The translations under genes and the position numbers were made by a program. Below are positions 43,033 to 52,593 of a stretch of 64,000 nucleotides of DNA, piece by piece (the first letter of the stretch is position 1; each line of letters opens with the position of its first letter). Under the pieces are notes generated by a model that worked only from the letters and a program-made list of their open reading frames with translations, was not told where the DNA came from and ran no database searches. Origin of the DNA: a bacterium. GTDB lineage: Bacteria; Electryoneota; RPQS01. The stretch spans positions 651,377 through 715,376 of the forward strand of contig DASXUQ010000005.1 of the NCBI GenBank assembly GCA_036504735.1, given 5' to 3'.

Positions 43033-43671
43033 ATGAAGAAATCTCCGCGCCTCACCGATCCGAACCTGCTCGAATTCTGGCGGACTTATGCCGCTCCGGG
43101 ACGGATCGGTCTTATTCACATAAACTTCGTCGCCGCCAAACTGATTAACTGGGGCGAGAAGTGGGTGACTCCCACAGGCGAGCCGTCCCCCTGGACCCAC
43201 GTCTTCATGTTCACCAAGCCCCGCCGGGGGATGCCGTGGATTGCGGAGAGCGATTTTCACGTGCCGCTTCCCGGATTCCTGCCGAAGCCCGACGGCCCGC
43301 AGGAAAATCCCGTGCAGAAATGGTCATCGACCACGATTGACCGCGCCGCCGTGGTGGATACAGGATTGACCCATGAGCAGTTTGAGGCCGCCGAACACGC
43401 CGCCCAGCATCTGATGTCCTCGGGCTACTCCTACCGCTTCGCCGAGCTTGCCGAGGCGTGGGTGGCCATGCTGAAACATGACCTGACCTACGTCAGCCCA
43501 CTGCACCGCGACGATTCCATGCACTGCGGACACTTCCTGCGGGAGTGCTTAAGCGCCGCAGCATGCGACCCCTTCGGTCCCGGCGTATTGCCTCACAATA
43601 CCGTCCCCGAGTTGTTTGCGCAGAAGTTTTCGCACATCGCCGAGTGGAGCAAGCCGCAGACCGCAGAGTAA
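43033..43671 (+). CDS. Putative permuted NlpC/P60-type papain-like protein
   Basis: A 212-residue cytoplasmic-looking protein without signal peptide. An early histidine in SPWTHVFMF, an acidic ESDFH and a late cysteine in SMHCGHFLRECL follow the His-first, Cys-last order of permuted NlpC/P60 enzymes (YiiX/YaeF type). Those enzymes act on peptide, amide or lipid bonds. The catalytic assignment is inference; the fold match is by motif order only. It has its own promoter and a terminator, so it is a single-gene unit. Confidence 0.6.
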   Translation: MKKSPRLTDPNLLEFWRTYAAPGRIGLIHINFVAAKLINWGEKWVTPTGEPSPWTHVFMFTKPRRGMPWIAESDFHVPLPGFLPKPDGPQENPVQKWSSTTIDRAAVVDTGLTHEQFEAAEHAAQHLMSSGYSYRFAELAEAWVAMLKHDLTYVSPLHRDDSMHCGHFLRECLSAAACDPFGPGVLPHNTVPELFAQKFSHIAEWSKPQTAE

Positions 43672-43749: not shown

Positions 43750-46700
43750 TCAGCGGATCAGCAGCAGCTTCTTCGCCTTGGTGTAGTTGGTCCCGGCTTT
43801 CATCCGGTACCAGTAAACTCCCGACGGCATCAGCACACCCGTATCATTGCGGCTGTCCCATGTGGCGTGGTATTCCGCCGGAGCCAGATGTCCCTTCACC
43901 AGCGTGCGTACCTGCCGCCCTAAAAGGTCATAGATGATAATCCGCACATCGGCGGTCGCAGGCACGATGTACGTAAAGTTCGCATCCTGATTGAACGGAT
44001 TCGGGAACGCGTCGCCGATCTCAAAACGGGTCGGCGGAATACGCGGAACACCATCCGTCTCTTGCGTCAAATTCACGCGGTCGAAATTGATGGACTCTGC
44101 CGACAAACGGTACGTGTAGTGTCGCCCCGGCGTGAGTCCGCGATCCACGTAGCGATAGACCGAGGCCGTCGCTTCCGTGCCGCGTCCTTCCAGTTCGGGG
44201 TGGTTCCGCCAGTTGGCGACCACCGCAAAGGAATCTTCATTCTCCGCCCTGCGCAGCAGCAGAAAACCCGCATTCGCCGTTTCCGAAGCAACCCCCCACT
44301 GAATCCGCAACGCGCCGAACAGCGTATCCTGTGCCGTAGAGAAGCTGGTAAGGTTGACCGCCAGCGGAACGTCGCGCGTACCGATCGGCCAGTGATCCGC
44401 CAGCACCGGGTCGCTGCCGCAGTCGATGTATGATGATTCCGTAATCGACAGAAAAACCGTGTGCCCCGGATTCGCGTTGGGACCGTGATAGAGCGACACG
44501 AAGAAGCTGGTCGGCGATGTGCTGATCGGAACCGTAAAGCCCTCAAACACCATGTCCTCGCCATTCCACGTGCCTAAGCTGTCCAGTGAGACATCTTCTC
44601 CCTCCGAGAACACGGTATCCACGCTGGAGAACAGCCGGATCTCATTGGCTGCCGCATCCGAAGGCAGAATGCTGCCCTGCACCGAAAATCGCAGACGACG
44701 CAGCACACTGGAACCGCCGAGCGACTTCAAATCCAGCCGGAACACCACGTGCCTCATCATATTGGGGATGACACTCCCCGCGCCAAGCGAACCGCCTGAC
44801 GCGAACACCGCCGTACCGCTGGGATAGATCAATTGATTGACATCCACCCGCGCCGCCGGATTGTTCAAGGTATCGCTGTAGAGAACCGAAAGCCGGTAGA
44901 GACCTCGTTCCACCAGTGAAAGTCCGCCCTCCACCCGCTCCACTCCGGGAGTGGCATCCAGCGACGCCGGCTGCAGCACAATCATCTTTTCACCCAGCGA
45001 GTCATTGCTCAGGTAAAGCGTGTGCGGCGACCCCGGATCCAAAGTTCCACCGGTCTGAGTCAACACCAGTCGCAGACTTCCGGGAAACGATTCCTCCGGC
45101 TGGAAGAATCGAACCGGCATGCTGATCTGGTACAGCGTATCGCCATCCACAGGCGAGTGAATCTGCGCCGGCTGCGTGTGATTATCGAAGGTGGTAAAGG
45201 CCAGCGGAGACACCGCCACGGGATTGCCGAGCGAATCACGGTAGGCCACGCGTACCCGGTACCGCAGGCTGTCGACCAGTGTGTTGTTCTGATCGGCGGT
45301 GCCGCCCCCGGTCACACTGTCCACCAGGCTCGAAAAGCTTAAGCCCGTCGCGTTCAACGTCAGGGCCATGTGGCCCGGAGCCTCCGTATGCAAATAGACA
45401 TTATGCGGTGAGCCCGGATCGCCTCCCGCATTGGCCTGAAGGATCATATAGACGCTTCCCGGCCACGGAGTCTCGGGCAGGTAATACTCCAAACGCATCG
45501 TGGCGTTGGTCGCATAGTTGACCGGCGGCGCCGGTGATGGCGGCGGCGGCGCGGGATACACCATGCGCGGCGGAATGGTGGTCTGGTCCCGTGGCCATAC
45601 GTAGCCGTCGTTCGTCACGGATACATTATCGTTGTTCAGAGAATCCCCGTACGTCAGCGTGACCTTATAGATGCACTGCGGCACCAGCCGGTCGTTCAGG
45701 CCGATATTGCTCTCCACCACCATCGGGTTGTTGGTGCCGATATTCTGTCCTTCAAGATGGAAGTTGACCAGGCCCGGACCGTAGTACCCCGGAGCCATCC
45801 GCAAAATGTGAATGGTGTCCGCGACCGCGGAAAGGTTGGTGTCAGGCTCAAACGTCAGCCATAGCGAATCGGCGCCCTCCGGCAGACTGTAGACCACATA
45901 GACCGTCGAATCGTAGGGATCCGCAGGCTGATAGCCGATGCGCGGCTCGTAAAGGGACGGCGTCTCCGTCCGCAAATCCGTATGGATATAACTTACCGTA
46001 GCCCGGGCGATGGGATTGTGGTTAATATCGCGGTAACTGAGTACAAACTGGTAGGTCGCCCCACTGGAGAGCGAATCCCCGCCCAGCAGAGTGTCCAGTG
46101 TCGTACGGTCAAACAGGTGGTAGGCATCCAGCGGAAGCGTCTTTGCCGCGCCCGCCGAATCATTGTGGATGTACAGAAAATGTGCTTCCTGGAATGGCTC
46201 CATCCGGGAGATGACCAGTGACAACGCGCCGAGGGCCGAATCCGCAGGCTCGGGCTGATTGTACACGAAGTTGAAACGGCGGCCAATGGTCATGCCGGAA
46301 TCCAGAGACAGGATGTGCGGCGGCAGAGTCACATTGTCGCGGAAGCGCAGATAGGTCGTATGCAACGCATCGACACTGTTCCGCACCGCCGGAACACCGT
46401 CCACACCGAACTGGCTGTCCCGCAGTTCACTTAAGAAGGGATGCCCGGAAGTATCCGACCAATAGACCGCCAGTTCCACCTGAAGCGAGCGCACATAGGG
46501 GTCCGTGACCTCAGGCAGCAGCGTGGCAAATTCCACCGTATGCGGCACCGAGATGGTATCAAAGACCATCCGCTGCGGATCCACCAGGCCATAGAGGACA
46601 CCGATGGGTTCCCGCCCCGGAATCGTGTCGGGGTGCAGATAAACGCGGATCATCTGCAACGAGTCCCGCTCCAGACCGACGCCCGCTATCGGGTATTCCG

Positions 46701-46887
46701 GTCCGGCAATGTATGAGGCAATAACATACAGCGAATCCCCGTTGAAAACGATACTATCCCGCACGCCCGGACTGCCGGACAAACCGATTCCCTGAACTTC
46801 CGGCAATTGCGCAAACGCGTTCGGCGCAACAACCGCCAGCAACAACCCGAGGAGCATCATGCCGCGTAGCTGTGAGAAACGTTTCAT
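43750..46887 (-). CDS. Large secreted repeat protein with type IX sorting domain
   Basis: A 1045-residue exported protein: signal peptide MKRFSQLRGMMLLGLLLAVVAPNAFAQ, an N-terminal domain, four tandem repeats of about 110 residues (roughly residues 188-680), a beta-rich stretch and a C-terminal sorting domain (FEIGDAFPNPFNQDANFTYI, VRIIIYDLLGRQVRTL, GVYWYRMKAGTNYTKAKKLL). Each repeat ends in a line like YRVRVAYRDSLGNPVA, and two contain DPGSPH followed by YL. I do not recognise the repeat family. It lies 48 bases after the protease gene and is probably cotranscribed with it. Surface or extracellular location is expected. Confidence 0.82.
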   Translation of the reverse strand: MKRFSQLRGMMLLGLLLAVVAPNAFAQLPEVQGIGLSGSPGVRDSIVFNGDSLYVIASYIAGPEYPIAGVGLERDSLQMIRVYLHPDTIPGREPIGVLYGLVDPQRMVFDTISVPHTVEFATLLPEVTDPYVRSLQVELAVYWSDTSGHPFLSELRDSQFGVDGVPAVRNSVDALHTTYLRFRDNVTLPPHILSLDSGMTIGRRFNFVYNQPEPADSALGALSLVISRMEPFQEAHFLYIHNDSAGAAKTLPLDAYHLFDRTTLDTLLGGDSLSSGATYQFVLSYRDINHNPIARATVSYIHTDLRTETPSLYEPRIGYQPADPYDSTVYVVYSLPEGADSLWLTFEPDTNLSAVADTIHILRMAPGYYGPGLVNFHLEGQNIGTNNPMVVESNIGLNDRLVPQCIYKVTLTYGDSLNNDNVSVTNDGYVWPRDQTTIPPRMVYPAPPPPSPAPPVNYATNATMRLEYYLPETPWPGSVYMILQANAGGDPGSPHNVYLHTEAPGHMALTLNATGLSFSSLVDSVTGGGTADQNNTLVDSLRYRVRVAYRDSLGNPVAVSPLAFTTFDNHTQPAQIHSPVDGDTLYQISMPVRFFQPEESFPGSLRLVLTQTGGTLDPGSPHTLYLSNDSLGEKMIVLQPASLDATPGVERVEGGLSLVERGLYRLSVLYSDTLNNPAARVDVNQLIYPSGTAVFASGGSLGAGSVIPNMMRHVVFRLDLKSLGGSSVLRRLRFSVQGSILPSDAAANEIRLFSSVDTVFSEGEDVSLDSLGTWNGEDMVFEGFTVPISTSPTSFFVSLYHGPNANPGHTVFLSITESSYIDCGSDPVLADHWPIGTRDVPLAVNLTSFSTAQDTLFGALRIQWGVASETANAGFLLLRRAENEDSFAVVANWRNHPELEGRGTEATASVYRYVDRGLTPGRHYTYRLSAESINFDRVNLTQETDGVPRIPPTRFEIGDAFPNPFNQDANFTYIVPATADVRIIIYDLLGRQVRTLVKGHLAPAEYHATWDSRNDTGVLMPSGVYWYRMKAGTNYTKAKKLLLIR

Positions 46888-46935
46888 AGGATGATATCCG
46901 TAAGGATTCAAGGGATCATGGCTTCGCACGTCGTT

Positions 46936-49740
46936 CTATCTCAGGATCAGCAACTTGCCGTCCACACGCCCGGACTGGGATTCAATACGGTAAAACAGGA
47001 CTCCGCTGGCATTGTCGAGCATCCCGCGGTCCAGAGCAATCGGATTGGGACCGCCGCGCAAACCATGCAGGTCCGCCACCACCTGTCCCAGCACATTGTA
47101 CAGACGCAGATTCACCGGCTGAGCGTCCGGCACCAGCAGGTGAAGCGGCTCTCCCTGCGGCAATGGATTGGGGAACAACCGGGGCTTTTCGGCAACCATC
47201 TGCGGCGCGGTTGGCGGAACTGGCGGCAAAACGTGCTGACCGTACCGCGCCCGGGCCGAATCCGCCTGCAACCGCAAATCCTCGATAGTCTGTCCCGTCA
47301 GCATCGCATAAGCAAACGTTCGCGTCTCGTGGCTGGTCATGGTCAGCGGTCCAATTGCCAGGGCCAGGCTCAAATCCATCGGCTGGGTGGGCGTCGGTTG
47401 GACTCCCTGCGTCAGGATATGCCACTTGGCGCTGTCGCCCCATGTTGGAGGATCGATCTGCGCGCGATTGTCGATCACATACAGCGTTCCCAAAGTGTCC
47501 GTGAGCGGCACGATGCCCGCCAGCGGATGCGATGGCCGGATCTGTTCGACGTACGTGATCCCCGACGCCGTATCATAATGAGCCACATTGGTTATCGCCG
47601 ACGCCAGATCGATGTCGAGAAAGAGGGAGGCGTAGGCCTGATTCCACGTATTCACCGAGCGGTTGGTCACCGTGTATTCGAGCACCAGTGAACCGTTGGC
47701 ACCCGGGCTGTTCCATCCAAGGACTGACGCGCCCACCTGCGCAAACAACGGCTCGGCGGCCGCACGGTCATCAAAGGTTGTCCGCGCTTCATAATCGGCG
47801 CGGGTCGATGAAACCGCATGCGCCACGCTGTCCGGCAAGACGGCCCAGTCGAAATAATCGGGCAGGCTGTCTACCGCATGGTTGTTGTAAAAATTGTCCG
47901 ACGCCGCGCCATCGGCGGCCATCACAAAACTGCCGTGATACAGCGCATTGGTGTGATCGGAAATCTGCCAGCCGGGGCCAAGATACTGGTTGCGCACATA
48001 ATCGAAATATCCAAGGGACCCGTTTTCGGCAAAGCCCAGCTTCAACCGGCCATTATCGGCAACAACAAACGTCGAATCCAAAATGACCGTCGCCGTGCCT
48101 CGTCCAATCAGGCGCTGGCCGGATTCGAAATCCACCGTGATCGGAATAATCGGACCGCGCCGCGCCGTACCAATGACCTGAATTCGCAGCGGTGTCGTGT
48201 TGACAAACGGCCCACCGTGCGGCACATTGCCAAAATCTACGATGGTGCCGGTCAGAGAGACGCTGTCACTGGTGGTGGAGACCCGGCCAATCACATTTCC
48301 GGCACTGCCCAGATCATTGAAAATAGAAATCTGCAAATTGGCGGTTTCCCCGCCCTGAATGTGGGTATCGTTGTTGCCGTCGTTCGGAGTGTAGGTCACA
48401 TTGACCAGCCGCACTCCGGCCACCGAGTCGGAAAGAGCCCGCCAGGCATTGATCCGCCCCAATCCAAGCTTCCCCGCCAGAGTCGGATTCATCGCATCAA
48501 TCGGATCCGATGACAAGATAACCCGTTCCATAATCTGCCGGCCATCCAGATTCCGAAAACGGCTGGCCACCAGAGCACAGGTCGCCGCAGCCATCGGTGT
48601 GGCCATGCTGGTACCCTGAAAGTAGTCATACGCCGCCTCGCCGTTCGGGCCAATCACTGTCGACAGGATCATCACACCCGGCGCGGTCACTTTCACCCAG
48701 TCGCCATGCGTGGTAAAATCCGCCGCTATGTCGCCGATCTGACTCGCCGCCGTTGCCAGTACCCCTTCGGTTCCCGCCGGAAACTCCCGGGATAGCGCAG
48801 GATCGTTCCCTGCCGCGGCCACCACCACGCAACCGTGGGACATCACGTAAGCCAGCACATCCTGTTCGAAGCCGGACGCATCCGACCCGCCCCAGGAGCA
48901 ATTGATAATTTTCGCCCCGCTTCGGCAGGCGTAGTAGATGCCGTCGTATCCGAAGTTGATACCGCCGCCCGCCCCCGCGCGTACCCCCATCACCTTGCAG
49001 CCGGGAGCCAGTCCCGAAATGCCGATGCCGTTATTCCGAGTCGCCGCCGCAATCCCCGCGACATGGGTGCCGTGAGTCTCCGGTCCCAGCCGTGGGTTCG
49101 GAGTCGGGTCTCCGTCCCCGTCTACAAAATCGTATCCGTAAAGGTCGTCGATGTACCCATTGCCGTCATCATCCACTCCCGGCTGGCCATGGACCTCCGC
49201 CCAATTCACCCAGCGTTGCGCCGCCAGATCCGGATGGGTGAAATCCACCCCCACATCCACCACCGCAATCACCACATTGGTGTCGCCCCGTGTGATATTC
49301 CACGCCGCTTCGGCGTCCACCGCGGGCAGTGCCCATTGCTGAGTATAGAAGGGATCGTTCGGCACACCGTCCAGCGCGTTTCCTCCGCGCCGCGCCGCCG
49401 TGTAATCATCGGTATGACGCTCGGGCCGCAGTTCGGCATAGTCAACGCGCGGATCTCCCTGCAAACCGGCGACAATCTCCTCTGCCGCCTGCCGCGATGT
49501 GGCCACAAGCACACTCACCCGCTCCAGCCCCTGCTCGGTGCGCTCCGTAATGGGCAGCGCGGCACGAACGCTCTCGGTGCGGCCTGCAAACTCCGGCATA
49601 GCCGTCAGAGCATCCAGCCGGGACGGCGGCGTCCGCCACTTGATAACCACTTCACGCGCCGCTCGTTCAATCGAGGCCGGAACGGCGGCAAAAGCCGATG
49701 CCGCAATCAGGAGGCAGCCAATCCACCACAATCGGATCAT
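46936..49740 (-). CDS. Secreted subtilisin-like (S8) serine protease with type IX sorting domain
   Basis: A 934-residue exported protease. Signal peptide MIRLWWIGCLLIAASAFA, an I9-like propeptide (about 25-110), and a catalytic domain with Asp162 in VVDVGVDFTHPDL, His223 in HGTHVAGI, Asn312 in AAGNDPA and Ser378 in GTSMATPMAAA. DDDGNGYIDDLYGYDF is a calcium-type loop. A long beta-rich region follows, then the sorting domain (PRLFPNPLPQGEPLHLLV, VNLRLYNVLGQVVADL, GVLFYRIES). The ATG overlaps the aminotransferase stop (ATGA), which sets the start 31 codons inside a longer frame. Confidence 0.92.
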   Translation of the reverse strand: MIRLWWIGCLLIAASAFAAVPASIERAAREVVIKWRTPPSRLDALTAMPEFAGRTESVRAALPITERTEQGLERVSVLVATSRQAAEEIVAGLQGDPRVDYAELRPERHTDDYTAARRGGNALDGVPNDPFYTQQWALPAVDAEAAWNITRGDTNVVIAVVDVGVDFTHPDLAAQRWVNWAEVHGQPGVDDDGNGYIDDLYGYDFVDGDGDPTPNPRLGPETHGTHVAGIAAATRNNGIGISGLAPGCKVMGVRAGAGGGINFGYDGIYYACRSGAKIINCSWGGSDASGFEQDVLAYVMSHGCVVVAAAGNDPALSREFPAGTEGVLATAASQIGDIAADFTTHGDWVKVTAPGVMILSTVIGPNGEAAYDYFQGTSMATPMAAATCALVASRFRNLDGRQIMERVILSSDPIDAMNPTLAGKLGLGRINAWRALSDSVAGVRLVNVTYTPNDGNNDTHIQGGETANLQISIFNDLGSAGNVIGRVSTTSDSVSLTGTIVDFGNVPHGGPFVNTTPLRIQVIGTARRGPIIPITVDFESGQRLIGRGTATVILDSTFVVADNGRLKLGFAENGSLGYFDYVRNQYLGPGWQISDHTNALYHGSFVMAADGAASDNFYNNHAVDSLPDYFDWAVLPDSVAHAVSSTRADYEARTTFDDRAAAEPLFAQVGASVLGWNSPGANGSLVLEYTVTNRSVNTWNQAYASLFLDIDLASAITNVAHYDTASGITYVEQIRPSHPLAGIVPLTDTLGTLYVIDNRAQIDPPTWGDSAKWHILTQGVQPTPTQPMDLSLALAIGPLTMTSHETRTFAYAMLTGQTIEDLRLQADSARARYGQHVLPPVPPTAPQMVAEKPRLFPNPLPQGEPLHLLVPDAQPVNLRLYNVLGQVVADLHGLRGGPNPIALDRGMLDNASGVLFYRIESQSGRVDGKLLILR

Positions 49741-50879
49741 ACTCGCTCCTTGATCATGCTCCTCAGCCGTGATAAGCCTTCCCTGACTTCCTCCACCGGC
49801 CCGCCAAAGCTCACTCGCACCGTGCCCGGGCATTCAAAGAAACTTCCGGGAAATACCACCGTCTTCTTTTGGGCCTGAAGTTCGCGCGAGAATTCCAGAT
49901 CATCGGTTCCCGCCGGCAGTTCCACCAGAGCGGAAATCCCCGCCGGCGGCATTACACAACTCACCTCGGGAGTTGCCGCCACAAAGTCCTCGAACAGGTC
50001 TCGTCCTGCGGTAGCCTTGGCAACCCCGGCAAGCATTGTTTCCACAGCCGCAGGGCTCTTCAACACGCGGTACGCCAGATCTTCGGTCATATGCGGCTGG
50101 TTGACTCCGAGCAGATTATTCAACCGGTAAGCGCGGTGCACGATGTCCGCCGGGCCAATTCCCCACCCCACTCGCAATGCATCGAGCCCCCAGGATTTGC
50201 CGAGGCTGTTCAGAGAAATCGCTCCGCGCGAGTACCCGTGCGTCCGGTGATCACGCCGCAGCATCGCCAGAAAAACTTCGTCGATCACCACCACCGCGCC
50301 CACTTCCGCCGCAATCGAGACCATTGTCGCCACCGCATCCATGTCCAGTGACGCGTGGGTCGGGTTGTGCAGATTGGTCAGCATCACCAGCCGCGTGTGC
50401 TCGTCAATCAGTTTCCGCAAGTCCGCCGGATCGGGCTGATAGCCCTTCTCCCTGCGGCGCGGCAGCCGCACGACGCGGTCCGCCCAGACCTGTATCGAAC
50501 GCAGAATCGGCTGGTACAGCGGTGTCTCCACAATCGCCGTGCCGCCATCAGCCAATACCGAGCCCGCCATCAGAAAATTGCACTGACTGGCCCCCTGCGC
50601 AATCAGCACATTCTCCGCACCCGTGCCATACATCTCCGCGATAACAGCCTTCAGTCCTTCATGGCCCCACTCATTGTGGCCGTAAAGGTCAGGCACATAC
50701 GGCCCGCCCGGCCAATCGGAAACGCTGGTAATCGACGGCACGCCGCTGCGCGCCAGATTGAAATGGCCCTCGGTAGTGTAACCGGTCTTCGCCCATTCCA
50801 TCAGTTCGGTGGGCTGCCATTTCAGAAATCGCGGTTCCATAGGGCGGCGGAAAACAGGGTCGTGGATCACGGTGCTCAT
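49737..50879 (-). CDS. PLP-dependent class I/II aminotransferase
   Basis: A 380-residue fold-type I enzyme. YGHNEWGHEGLKAVIAEMYG at the N-side, NLHNPTHASLD, the PLP-nitrogen aspartate in VVIDEVFL, the Schiff-base lysine in SLNSLGKSWGLDALRVGW and the carboxylate-binding arginine in VRVSFGGP are all present. The likely substrate is an amino acid, but its side chain cannot be read. Both ends overlap neighbours by four bases (a membrane protein upstream, a secreted protease downstream). A cytoplasmic metabolic enzyme in a set of secreted proteins is unusual. Confidence 0.88.
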   Translation of the reverse strand: MSTVIHDPVFRRPMEPRFLKWQPTELMEWAKTGYTTEGHFNLARSGVPSITSVSDWPGGPYVPDLYGHNEWGHEGLKAVIAEMYGTGAENVLIAQGASQCNFLMAGSVLADGGTAIVETPLYQPILRSIQVWADRVVRLPRRREKGYQPDPADLRKLIDEHTRLVMLTNLHNPTHASLDMDAVATMVSIAAEVGAVVVIDEVFLAMLRRDHRTHGYSRGAISLNSLGKSWGLDALRVGWGIGPADIVHRAYRLNNLLGVNQPHMTEDLAYRVLKSPAAVETMLAGVAKATAGRDLFEDFVAATPEVSCVMPPAGISALVELPAGTDDLEFSRELQAQKKTVVFPGSFFECPGTVRVSFGGPVEEVREGLSRLRSMIKERV

Positions 50880-51618: not shown

Positions 51619-52593
51619 CTATTTTTCCAACAGAATCCTTTGTGTCCGCGAGTGGCCTTGAGCCTCAAGGCGCACAAAGTACATTCCTGAACTCCAATCC
51701 TGCCCGTTCAGGGACAGCCGGTGTGTTCCTGCACTGAACACCCTGCCGGCCAGTTCCGCGCGCTCCCGCCCCAGAATATCCAGCACCGTCACCTTCACCG
51801 CCTGCGGACGCGACAAATCAAAAGAAATCGTCGTCTGCGGATTAAAGGGATTCGGATACGCCGGGTACAGCGCAAAACTCTCGGGCTTGTCTCCGGGGGC
51901 GAGCACCGAGATTCCCGCCGAGGGAATACTCACAATCGCCCGAATCAAAAAGTCTACTCCCCTGAACCCTGTCTGCATCAGTTCGAAGTGCCCGTTGTAG
52001 AATTCGCTGGAGTAGATCGACCCCGTATTGCCGTCTGCCAGAATCGCCAGCGTGTCGCCACTCCCGCCCCGGATCGCGGTGTATCCCACATGGAACCACT
52101 CACCTGCCGTCAGGCTCACCGGAGTTGCCGTAAGGTCCACCATGACAAATTGCGCCGGCACATTTCGCCATACGGAATCCACATCGAACACGGATGCCGA
52201 ATACTGGCTGAAGCTCAGGGTATCGCTTGCCAGTTCCGCATTTAAGTTCGGAAAAGAATCCGCGCCCGATGCCCACACCTTAGTCACAAGGGCCGGGCTG
52301 CCTGTTGTCAAAGACCGGAATCCGCGCGTCCCGAAGGCCATCATCACGCCCACAAGGCTGCAATTCTCGGGAGCCCGGAAGCGCTGATTGCGCAGATCAT
52401 CGCCATAAACATCGGGGAATTTGAAGGGGTACACCACCGTCCCATTGTCCAGTTGCAGCACAAGCAGGCTGTCATCCAGTGCATTTCGACCTCCCGGAGC
52501 ACGGCCAAAACCGCCATCCTGCGCCCACGCCGCCCAAACGGACAGCGATAACGCAAAAGCGATAGCAAATGCCTTAAAAAATAAACCTCTCAC
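51619..52593 (-). CDS. Secreted protein with type IX sorting domain
   Basis: A 324-residue exported protein beginning at a GTG with GAGG just upstream. Signal peptide LFFKAFAIAFALSLSVWAAWAQ, then a beta-rich domain of about 200 residues with no motif I can name (FRAPENCSLVGVMMAFGTRG, SLTAGEWFHVGYTAIRGGSG), and the sorting domain FALYPAYPNPFNPQTTISFD, VKVTVLDILGRERAEL, GMYFVRLEAQGHSRTQRILL. It is the first gene of the five-gene set ending at the large repeat protein. Confidence 0.82.
   Translation of the reverse strand: MRGLFFKAFAIAFALSLSVWAAWAQDGGFGRAPGGRNALDDSLLVLQLDNGTVVYPFKFPDVYGDDLRNQRFRAPENCSLVGVMMAFGTRGFRSLTTGSPALVTKVWASGADSFPNLNAELASDTLSFSQYSASVFDVDSVWRNVPAQFVMVDLTATPVSLTAGEWFHVGYTAIRGGSGDTLAILADGNTGSIYSSEFYNGHFELMQTGFRGVDFLIRAIVSIPSAGISVLAPGDKPESFALYPAYPNPFNPQTTISFDLSRPQAVKVTVLDILGRERAELAGRVFSAGTHRLSLNGQDWSSGMYFVRLEAQGHSRTQRILLEK

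Follow-up and report, generated by a model that had tools for sequence, protein, structure and literature searches.

Which domain is repeated four times in a secreted protein of an uncultured phylum when no domain library names it, and what might such a protein do? The question arises from a gene in a 64,000-nucleotide stretch of DNA (the whole stretch analysed, hereafter the window) belonging to a genome of 4.16 Mb in 19 contigs from Ca. Electryoneota, a phylum in which a paper on Ca. Electryoneota/AABM5-125-24 names an 'RPQS01 class' (PMC10439189). The first-pass annotation, made from the letters and their reading frames, had described four tandem copies of a 110-residue repeat, suggestive of a beta-sandwich of a family that it could not name and set in a type IX cargo protein. 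Our analysis indicates that the units are ordinary in kind, namely bacterial Ig-like, and new in detail, and that their carrier is a conserved type IX cargo protein. We found no earlier description of the repeat in the literature on Electryoneota, KSB1 type IX secretion and Marinimicrobia Ig-like repeats.

The repeat and its carrier protein

The repeat in the protein encoded at 43753-46887 is real (layout in Table 1). Positions 44818-46323 encode four units in tandem, each about 115-123 residues long, and the coordinates first given for them, 44848-46326, were correct to within about 30 bases. The count of four copies stands and the length of 110 residues does not, since the units are somewhat longer: the similar line that had been noticed at the end of each copy is present in all four, at residues 279, 407, 543 and 664 (spacings of 128, 136 and 121). 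DPGSPH followed by YL also occurs in copies 3 and 4, as had been noted.

Table 1. Features of the repeat gene and of the gene directly upstream (positions in the window; residues of the 1045-residue protein)
Feature	Position	Strand	Remarks
Repeat protein, 1045 aa	43753..46887	-	ATG at 46887; orthologues in 12 other genomes
Stop codon of the repeat gene	43750-43752	-	
Longest ORF for the repeat protein	43750-46929	-	GTG start at 46929
Likely signal peptide, residues 1-27	46807..46887	-	judged by eye from sequence
N-terminal domain, residues 28-188	46324..46806	-	without family match; by profile unrelated to the units
Unit 1, residues 189-309 (profile envelope 190-304)	45961..46323	-	shuffles and profiles
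Unit 2, residues 310-437 (profile envelope 310-432)	45577..45960	-	profiles
Unit 3, residues 438-572 (profile envelope 450-568)	45172..45576	-	shuffles and profiles
Unit 4, residues 573-690 (profile envelope 575-689)	44818..45171	-	shuffles, profiles and structure model
Middle domain, residues 691-838	44374..44817	-	without family match; by profile unrelated to the units
Domain preceding the sorting domain, residues 839-954	44026..44373	-	
Type IX (type A) sorting domain, residues 955-1045	43753..44025	-	TIGR04183, PF13860
Subtilase (S8), also bearing a type IX sorting domain	46936..49833	-	PF00082 150.9 bits; TIGR04183 28.4 bits (cut-off 23)

Pairwise unit scores were set against 1000 shuffles of one partner. 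Units 1, 3 and 4 are strongly backed by this comparison, with scores of 146 for units 3 and 4 (top shuffle 54), 91 for units 1 and 4 (top shuffle 49) and 73 for units 1 and 3 (top shuffle 49). Unit 2 is weakly backed: it scored 56 with unit 3 (top shuffle 55) and 54 with unit 4 (top shuffle 57; one of the 1000 shuffles equal or higher), and its score of 34 with unit 1 lies within chance (94 of 1000 equal or higher). In profile-profile comparison all six unit pairs matched at 97.3-99.7% probability, using profiles from an 11-row full alignment of orthologues that omits two of the 13 proteins (L058 and L059). Unit 2 was shifted in two MAFFT alignments; the orthologue alignment and one further alignment place its strands with those of the other units. 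A proline-rich linker lies ahead of unit 3 in the protein of the window genome. A possible fifth unit at residues 28-188 was rejected, as its scores against the units were no better than shuffles and its profile match reached 7%; by shuffles and profiles, none of the N-terminal, middle, C-terminal and sorting domains is an extra copy of the unit. A full-length structure model of the protein, computed from three sequences, had a pLDDT of 33 and gave no usable domain arrangement.

The C-terminus of the protein scores over the cut-offs of TIGR04183 (27.4 bits, cut-off 23) and PF13860 (28.1 bits, cut-off 27), and below that of PF18962, the Pfam sorting-domain model (21.5 bits, cut-off 27). In its own genome the main piece matched by the SprA model scores 586.5 bits against a cut-off of 200, and this model is over its cut-off in 10 of the 11 genomes of the family and in 0 of 14 control genomes. 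Judged by its sorting domain and by the translocon of its genome, the protein is a predicted type A cargo of the type IX system, and the TIGR04183 score bears out the annotation on this point. A search of the genome with the whole protein gave at least 150 matches, itself counted (150 of 255 candidates scored); the other matches, at least 149, fall in the C-terminal part of the protein, many of them within the last ~100 residues only, which suggests a large set of putative type IX cargo in this genome. The C-terminal region so matched at 149 or more further genomic places (150 of 255 candidates scored) is 43753-44373 on the minus strand, and the domain at residues 839-954 co-occurs with the sorting domain in some of the matches elsewhere.

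Kinship of the units with bacterial Ig-like domains

An iterated profile search, seeded with units 1, 3 and 4 only and joined by unit 2 during the iterations, collected 53 units in 13 proteins, four of them in the window protein. Among these 53 units from 13 genomes, no Pfam or NCBIfam family matches more than one, so that the annotation was right to leave the family unnamed as regards these two libraries. The best single-unit matches were FlgD_ig in Pfam (E 5.8e-4, one unit) and the MXAN_2561 family in NCBIfam (E 0.0054, one unit). Big_3_3, Big_5 and Big_13 each match one of the 53 single units at E ~0.08-0.1, and none of the three matches the window protein at E <= 10 (Pfam). No match was found for units 1-4 in PDB sequences (E 10) or plasmids (tblastn, E 10), or for units 3-4 in phages and plasmids (tblastn, E 1). 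The 53-unit profile gave 14 matches to PDB sequences at E 10; the top one, a phage capsid-protein fusion with E 6.2e-5, was judged a chance match, its stretches scoring 11.5 and 12.2 bits. The annotation had proposed a profile search that might place the units in a known fibronectin-III (FN3) or Ig family at full coverage; as regards FN3, the next PDB match of the 53-unit profile was chitinase A1, at E 0.033 over profile positions 50-110 of 116. Screening with two short peptide patterns only gave 33 matches in viral contigs, none confirmed, and 38 in genome contigs, 3 of them confirmed; because the genome contigs were screened with these two patterns only, more distant kin may be missed.

The scan of genome contigs yielded a distant relative, L068, a 3057-residue Ca. 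Marinimicrobia ORF (UBA6931) that resembles the unit profile over about 26 stretches, 21 of them cut out as units by pattern. Whole L068 passes the Pfam cut-offs of Big_3_3 (PF13750, 149.7 bits), Big_5 (PF13205, 121.2 bits) and Big_13 (PF19077, 89.4 bits), whereas the window protein does not. It also passes that of the OmpL47-type domain NF047446 (72.8 bits, cut-off 40), and it scores 80.9 bits with the MXAN_2561 family model, below the cut-off of 150. Its single units are weak, with 6 of 21 matching Big_3_3 at E <= 1 (best 1.6e-4). The pooled profile of the window-kind units matches the profile of the L068 units at 98.4% probability over 97 columns, and unit positions 1-4 match it at 95.3, 96.8, 96.2 and 97.6%, against internal controls of 0.2 (N-terminal domain), 0.1 (middle domain), 15.3 (C-terminal domain) and 1.6% (sorting domain); the E-values of these profile-profile comparisons refer to one pair, not to a database. 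A central D..SPH pattern and the end line L(V)..Y....D..GN are common to both kinds. They differ in length, the 21 measured L068 units having 101-105 residues and the window kind 110-127 across orthologues, with a gap of ~14 columns on the L068 side of the alignment, and in number, with ~26 unit matches in one protein against three to five copies. Moreover, the 53-unit profile matches 33 of 149 Marinimicrobia genomes (E <= 1e-4), and in 12 loci inspected among these 33 genomes, each a fragment, the best unit has ~97-104 residues. Homology to accepted Ig-like repeats is thus detectable, at the level of profiles, for all four unit positions.

The bacterial Ig-like domain superfamily, in the broad sense, is a seven- to eight-stranded beta-sandwich. 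Unit 4, the one unit of the four modelled singly, on an alignment of 33 units drawn from the window and from L066, L067 and L068, gave a model with pLDDT 96.1, pTM 0.88, eight strands and a short helix. This predicted structure fits the seven- to eight-stranded description and aligns over its length with FN3 and other sandwich modules, in agreement with the beta-sandwich first proposed. Since the model alignment includes Marinimicrobia relatives, the evidence from model and profile is not fully independent. Foldseek returned no PDB match to the model at E <= 0.001. A second structure comparison gave Z up to 8.6 among the matches listed, which include esterase and glycosidase stretches, this value being near the tool's middling range and the listed matches mixing several kinds of sandwich. 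The six top matches listed have 86-87 aligned residues with rmsd 2.4-2.8, named FN3 modules among the matches listed have Z 6.4-7.6, and sequence identity to unit 4 does not exceed 19% for the FN3 modules and similar sandwiches found in secreted PDB enzymes, again among those listed. We read the top matches as Ig-like accessory modules from their aligned ranges, the titles being silent on this. These matches support a common sandwich arrangement and nothing beyond it, and a family missing from the matches listed does not count as ruled out. To judge by the gap between the aligned profiles, the short helix of the unit 4 model and one of its strands may be extras to the common fold.

On the evidence of the profiles, and with less certainty on that of the model, the units are a diverged and longer subfamily of bacterial Ig-like domains. 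The suggestion of an unnamed sandwich thus holds for the missing Pfam and NCBIfam name and fails for the unknown kind, as the units join the bacterial Ig-like and FN3-like domains. A profile is now available for an Ig-like subfamily invisible to the libraries searched, and the subfamily can be placed. The lack of a Pfam match in this case most likely reflects divergence of a common domain rather than a novel fold.

Distribution and history of the units

With units 1-4 as query, the protein was found in 9 of the 11 genomes of the family, its own included. A profile of the window's four units alone recovered it in 13 of 39 phylum genomes (E <= 0.01) and the 53-unit profile, built from those proteins, in the same 13 (E <= 0.001); at this last threshold, no genome of the 39 had more than one matching protein. 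Orthologues from the order are 31-46% identical to the window protein, and those from two genomes further away 23-24%. Four units are present in 10 of the 13 proteins, five in two (the extra unit being that of G007 and G008) and three in one. Across the nine orthologues of the conservation table (of 11 aligned rows), unit 2 is the best conserved unit, with a mean pairwise column identity of 0.42 against 0.32, 0.35 and 0.40 for the others; the sorting domain, at 0.48, is above all units.

The 53 units were placed in a quick tree with SH-aLRT support only. Labels by position were given in 11 of the 13 proteins, while the additional unit in G007 and G008 and all units from the two distant proteins were treated as separate groups. 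The tree contains 8 changes of position label, against 33.4 in shuffles. For positions 2 and 4, one branch each sets the units of that position apart from all others (support 90 and 96); position 3 accounts for two label changes and position 1 for three, and at positions 1 and 3 the copies from the sister family group away from their own positions. Since units 2 and 4 keep their position across two families, their duplications predate the split of these families. For units 1 and 3, a duplication ahead of the splits holds inside the window's family only. The four units are old, diverged copies, and the build of four has stayed mostly constant.

Possible role and the neighbouring subtilase

We consider it rather likely that this is a type IX-exported protein, probably held at the surface, in which four Ig-like domains serve as spacer or scaffold and offer binding faces to a partner or substrate. 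Type IX cargo is described as either released or anchored (PMC10202324); for the repeat protein, presumably exported by this system, anchoring at the cell surface seems the probable outcome and release the alternative. The four beta-sandwich domains might then serve as spacer, stalk or scaffold, their position-specific faces might bind the partner or substrate, and the protein possibly works together with the secreted subtilase encoded next to it.

The subtilase gene adjoins the repeat gene directly upstream on the same strand, with 48 bases from its stop codon to the ATG at 46887. The part past the catalytic domain, used as query with at most 40 candidates scored per genome, matches at least 30 of 39 phylum genomes at E <= 1e-10. 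Close copies (E <= 4.3e-63, the next best being 5.0e-43) occur in at least 10 of 39 genomes, all of which have the repeat protein. In 9 of these 10, the window counted, the close subtilase lies directly upstream on the same strand; in the tenth, G006, the repeat gene starts near a contig end and the subtilase is on another contig. The upstream subtilase of G009 is cut by a contig end, and its matched stretch reads through one stop. Neither repeat protein nor close subtilase was found in G003 and G005 (56% complete).

A more specific explanation is that the two proteins form a working pair, the repeat protein being docking scaffold, substrate or inhibitor of the subtilase and its conserved unit faces holding the enzyme. 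The shared order, strand and adjacency in nine of the ten genomes and the type IX sorting domains on both proteins speak for it. Within the window's own family this adjacency is weak evidence, because the wider gene order is largely kept there. More telling is the sister family (L062, L063), where 3 of 31 window ORFs match within the 15-20 kb fetched, namely the repeat gene, the subtilase and one more ORF with a sorting domain, nearly all other neighbours not being found nearby. However, the repeat protein is present in G002, G033 and G034 with no subtilase match among the candidates scored, and neighbourhood is no proof of contact. What is indicated is a conserved neighbourhood of secreted protein and protease in an uncultured phylum, and we regard the working pair as a tentative and rather unlikely explanation. 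Somewhat more doubtful is its fuller form, in which position-specialised Ig-like units would dock the partner subtilase at the surface, as a two-gene protease-scaffold complex inherited together in one Ca. Electryoneota class.

The surface spacer or scaffold with binding faces also has to be weighed against a fibrillar adhesin of variable repeat number, as in long repetitive stalk proteins. Long Ig-like repeat regions have been described in adhesins of other bacteria (PMC4083281, PMC9704523), and the Marinimicrobia relatives are large arrays of ~100-residue units. Yet the phylum proteins mostly keep to four units (10 of 13), units 2 and 4 hold their positional identity, and units 1-3 of the window protein are merely 22-31% identical to unit 4. 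We take an adhesin of this type to be improbable; the N-terminal domain has no family match in Pfam, and no tip domain was seen. Even less probable is a truly new sandwich family without kinship to bacterial Ig-like domains, which the lack of a curated model naming the units consistently, the empty Foldseek search and the ~14 residues by which the units exceed those of L068 would favor, but which is opposed by the profile-profile matches of all four positions to L068 beside low internal controls and by the D..SPH pattern and Y..D..N end line present in both groups.

Other ORFs accompany the repeat gene. Beside it, on the plus strand (43033-43671), lies a conserved 212-residue ORF found in five related loci, which has no match in Pfam (E 0.001) or NCBIfam (E 0.1). 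Further upstream on the same strand as the repeat gene, a 324-residue ORF (51619-52593, minus) matches TIGR04183 at 42.1 bits, and matches to it that extend past the sorting domain are found near the repeat gene in L055, L058, L059 and L063. In L062 (8853-14033) and L063 (2087-7369), a large ORF of 1726 and 1760 residues, respectively, follows the repeat gene, and its end matches the sorting domain.
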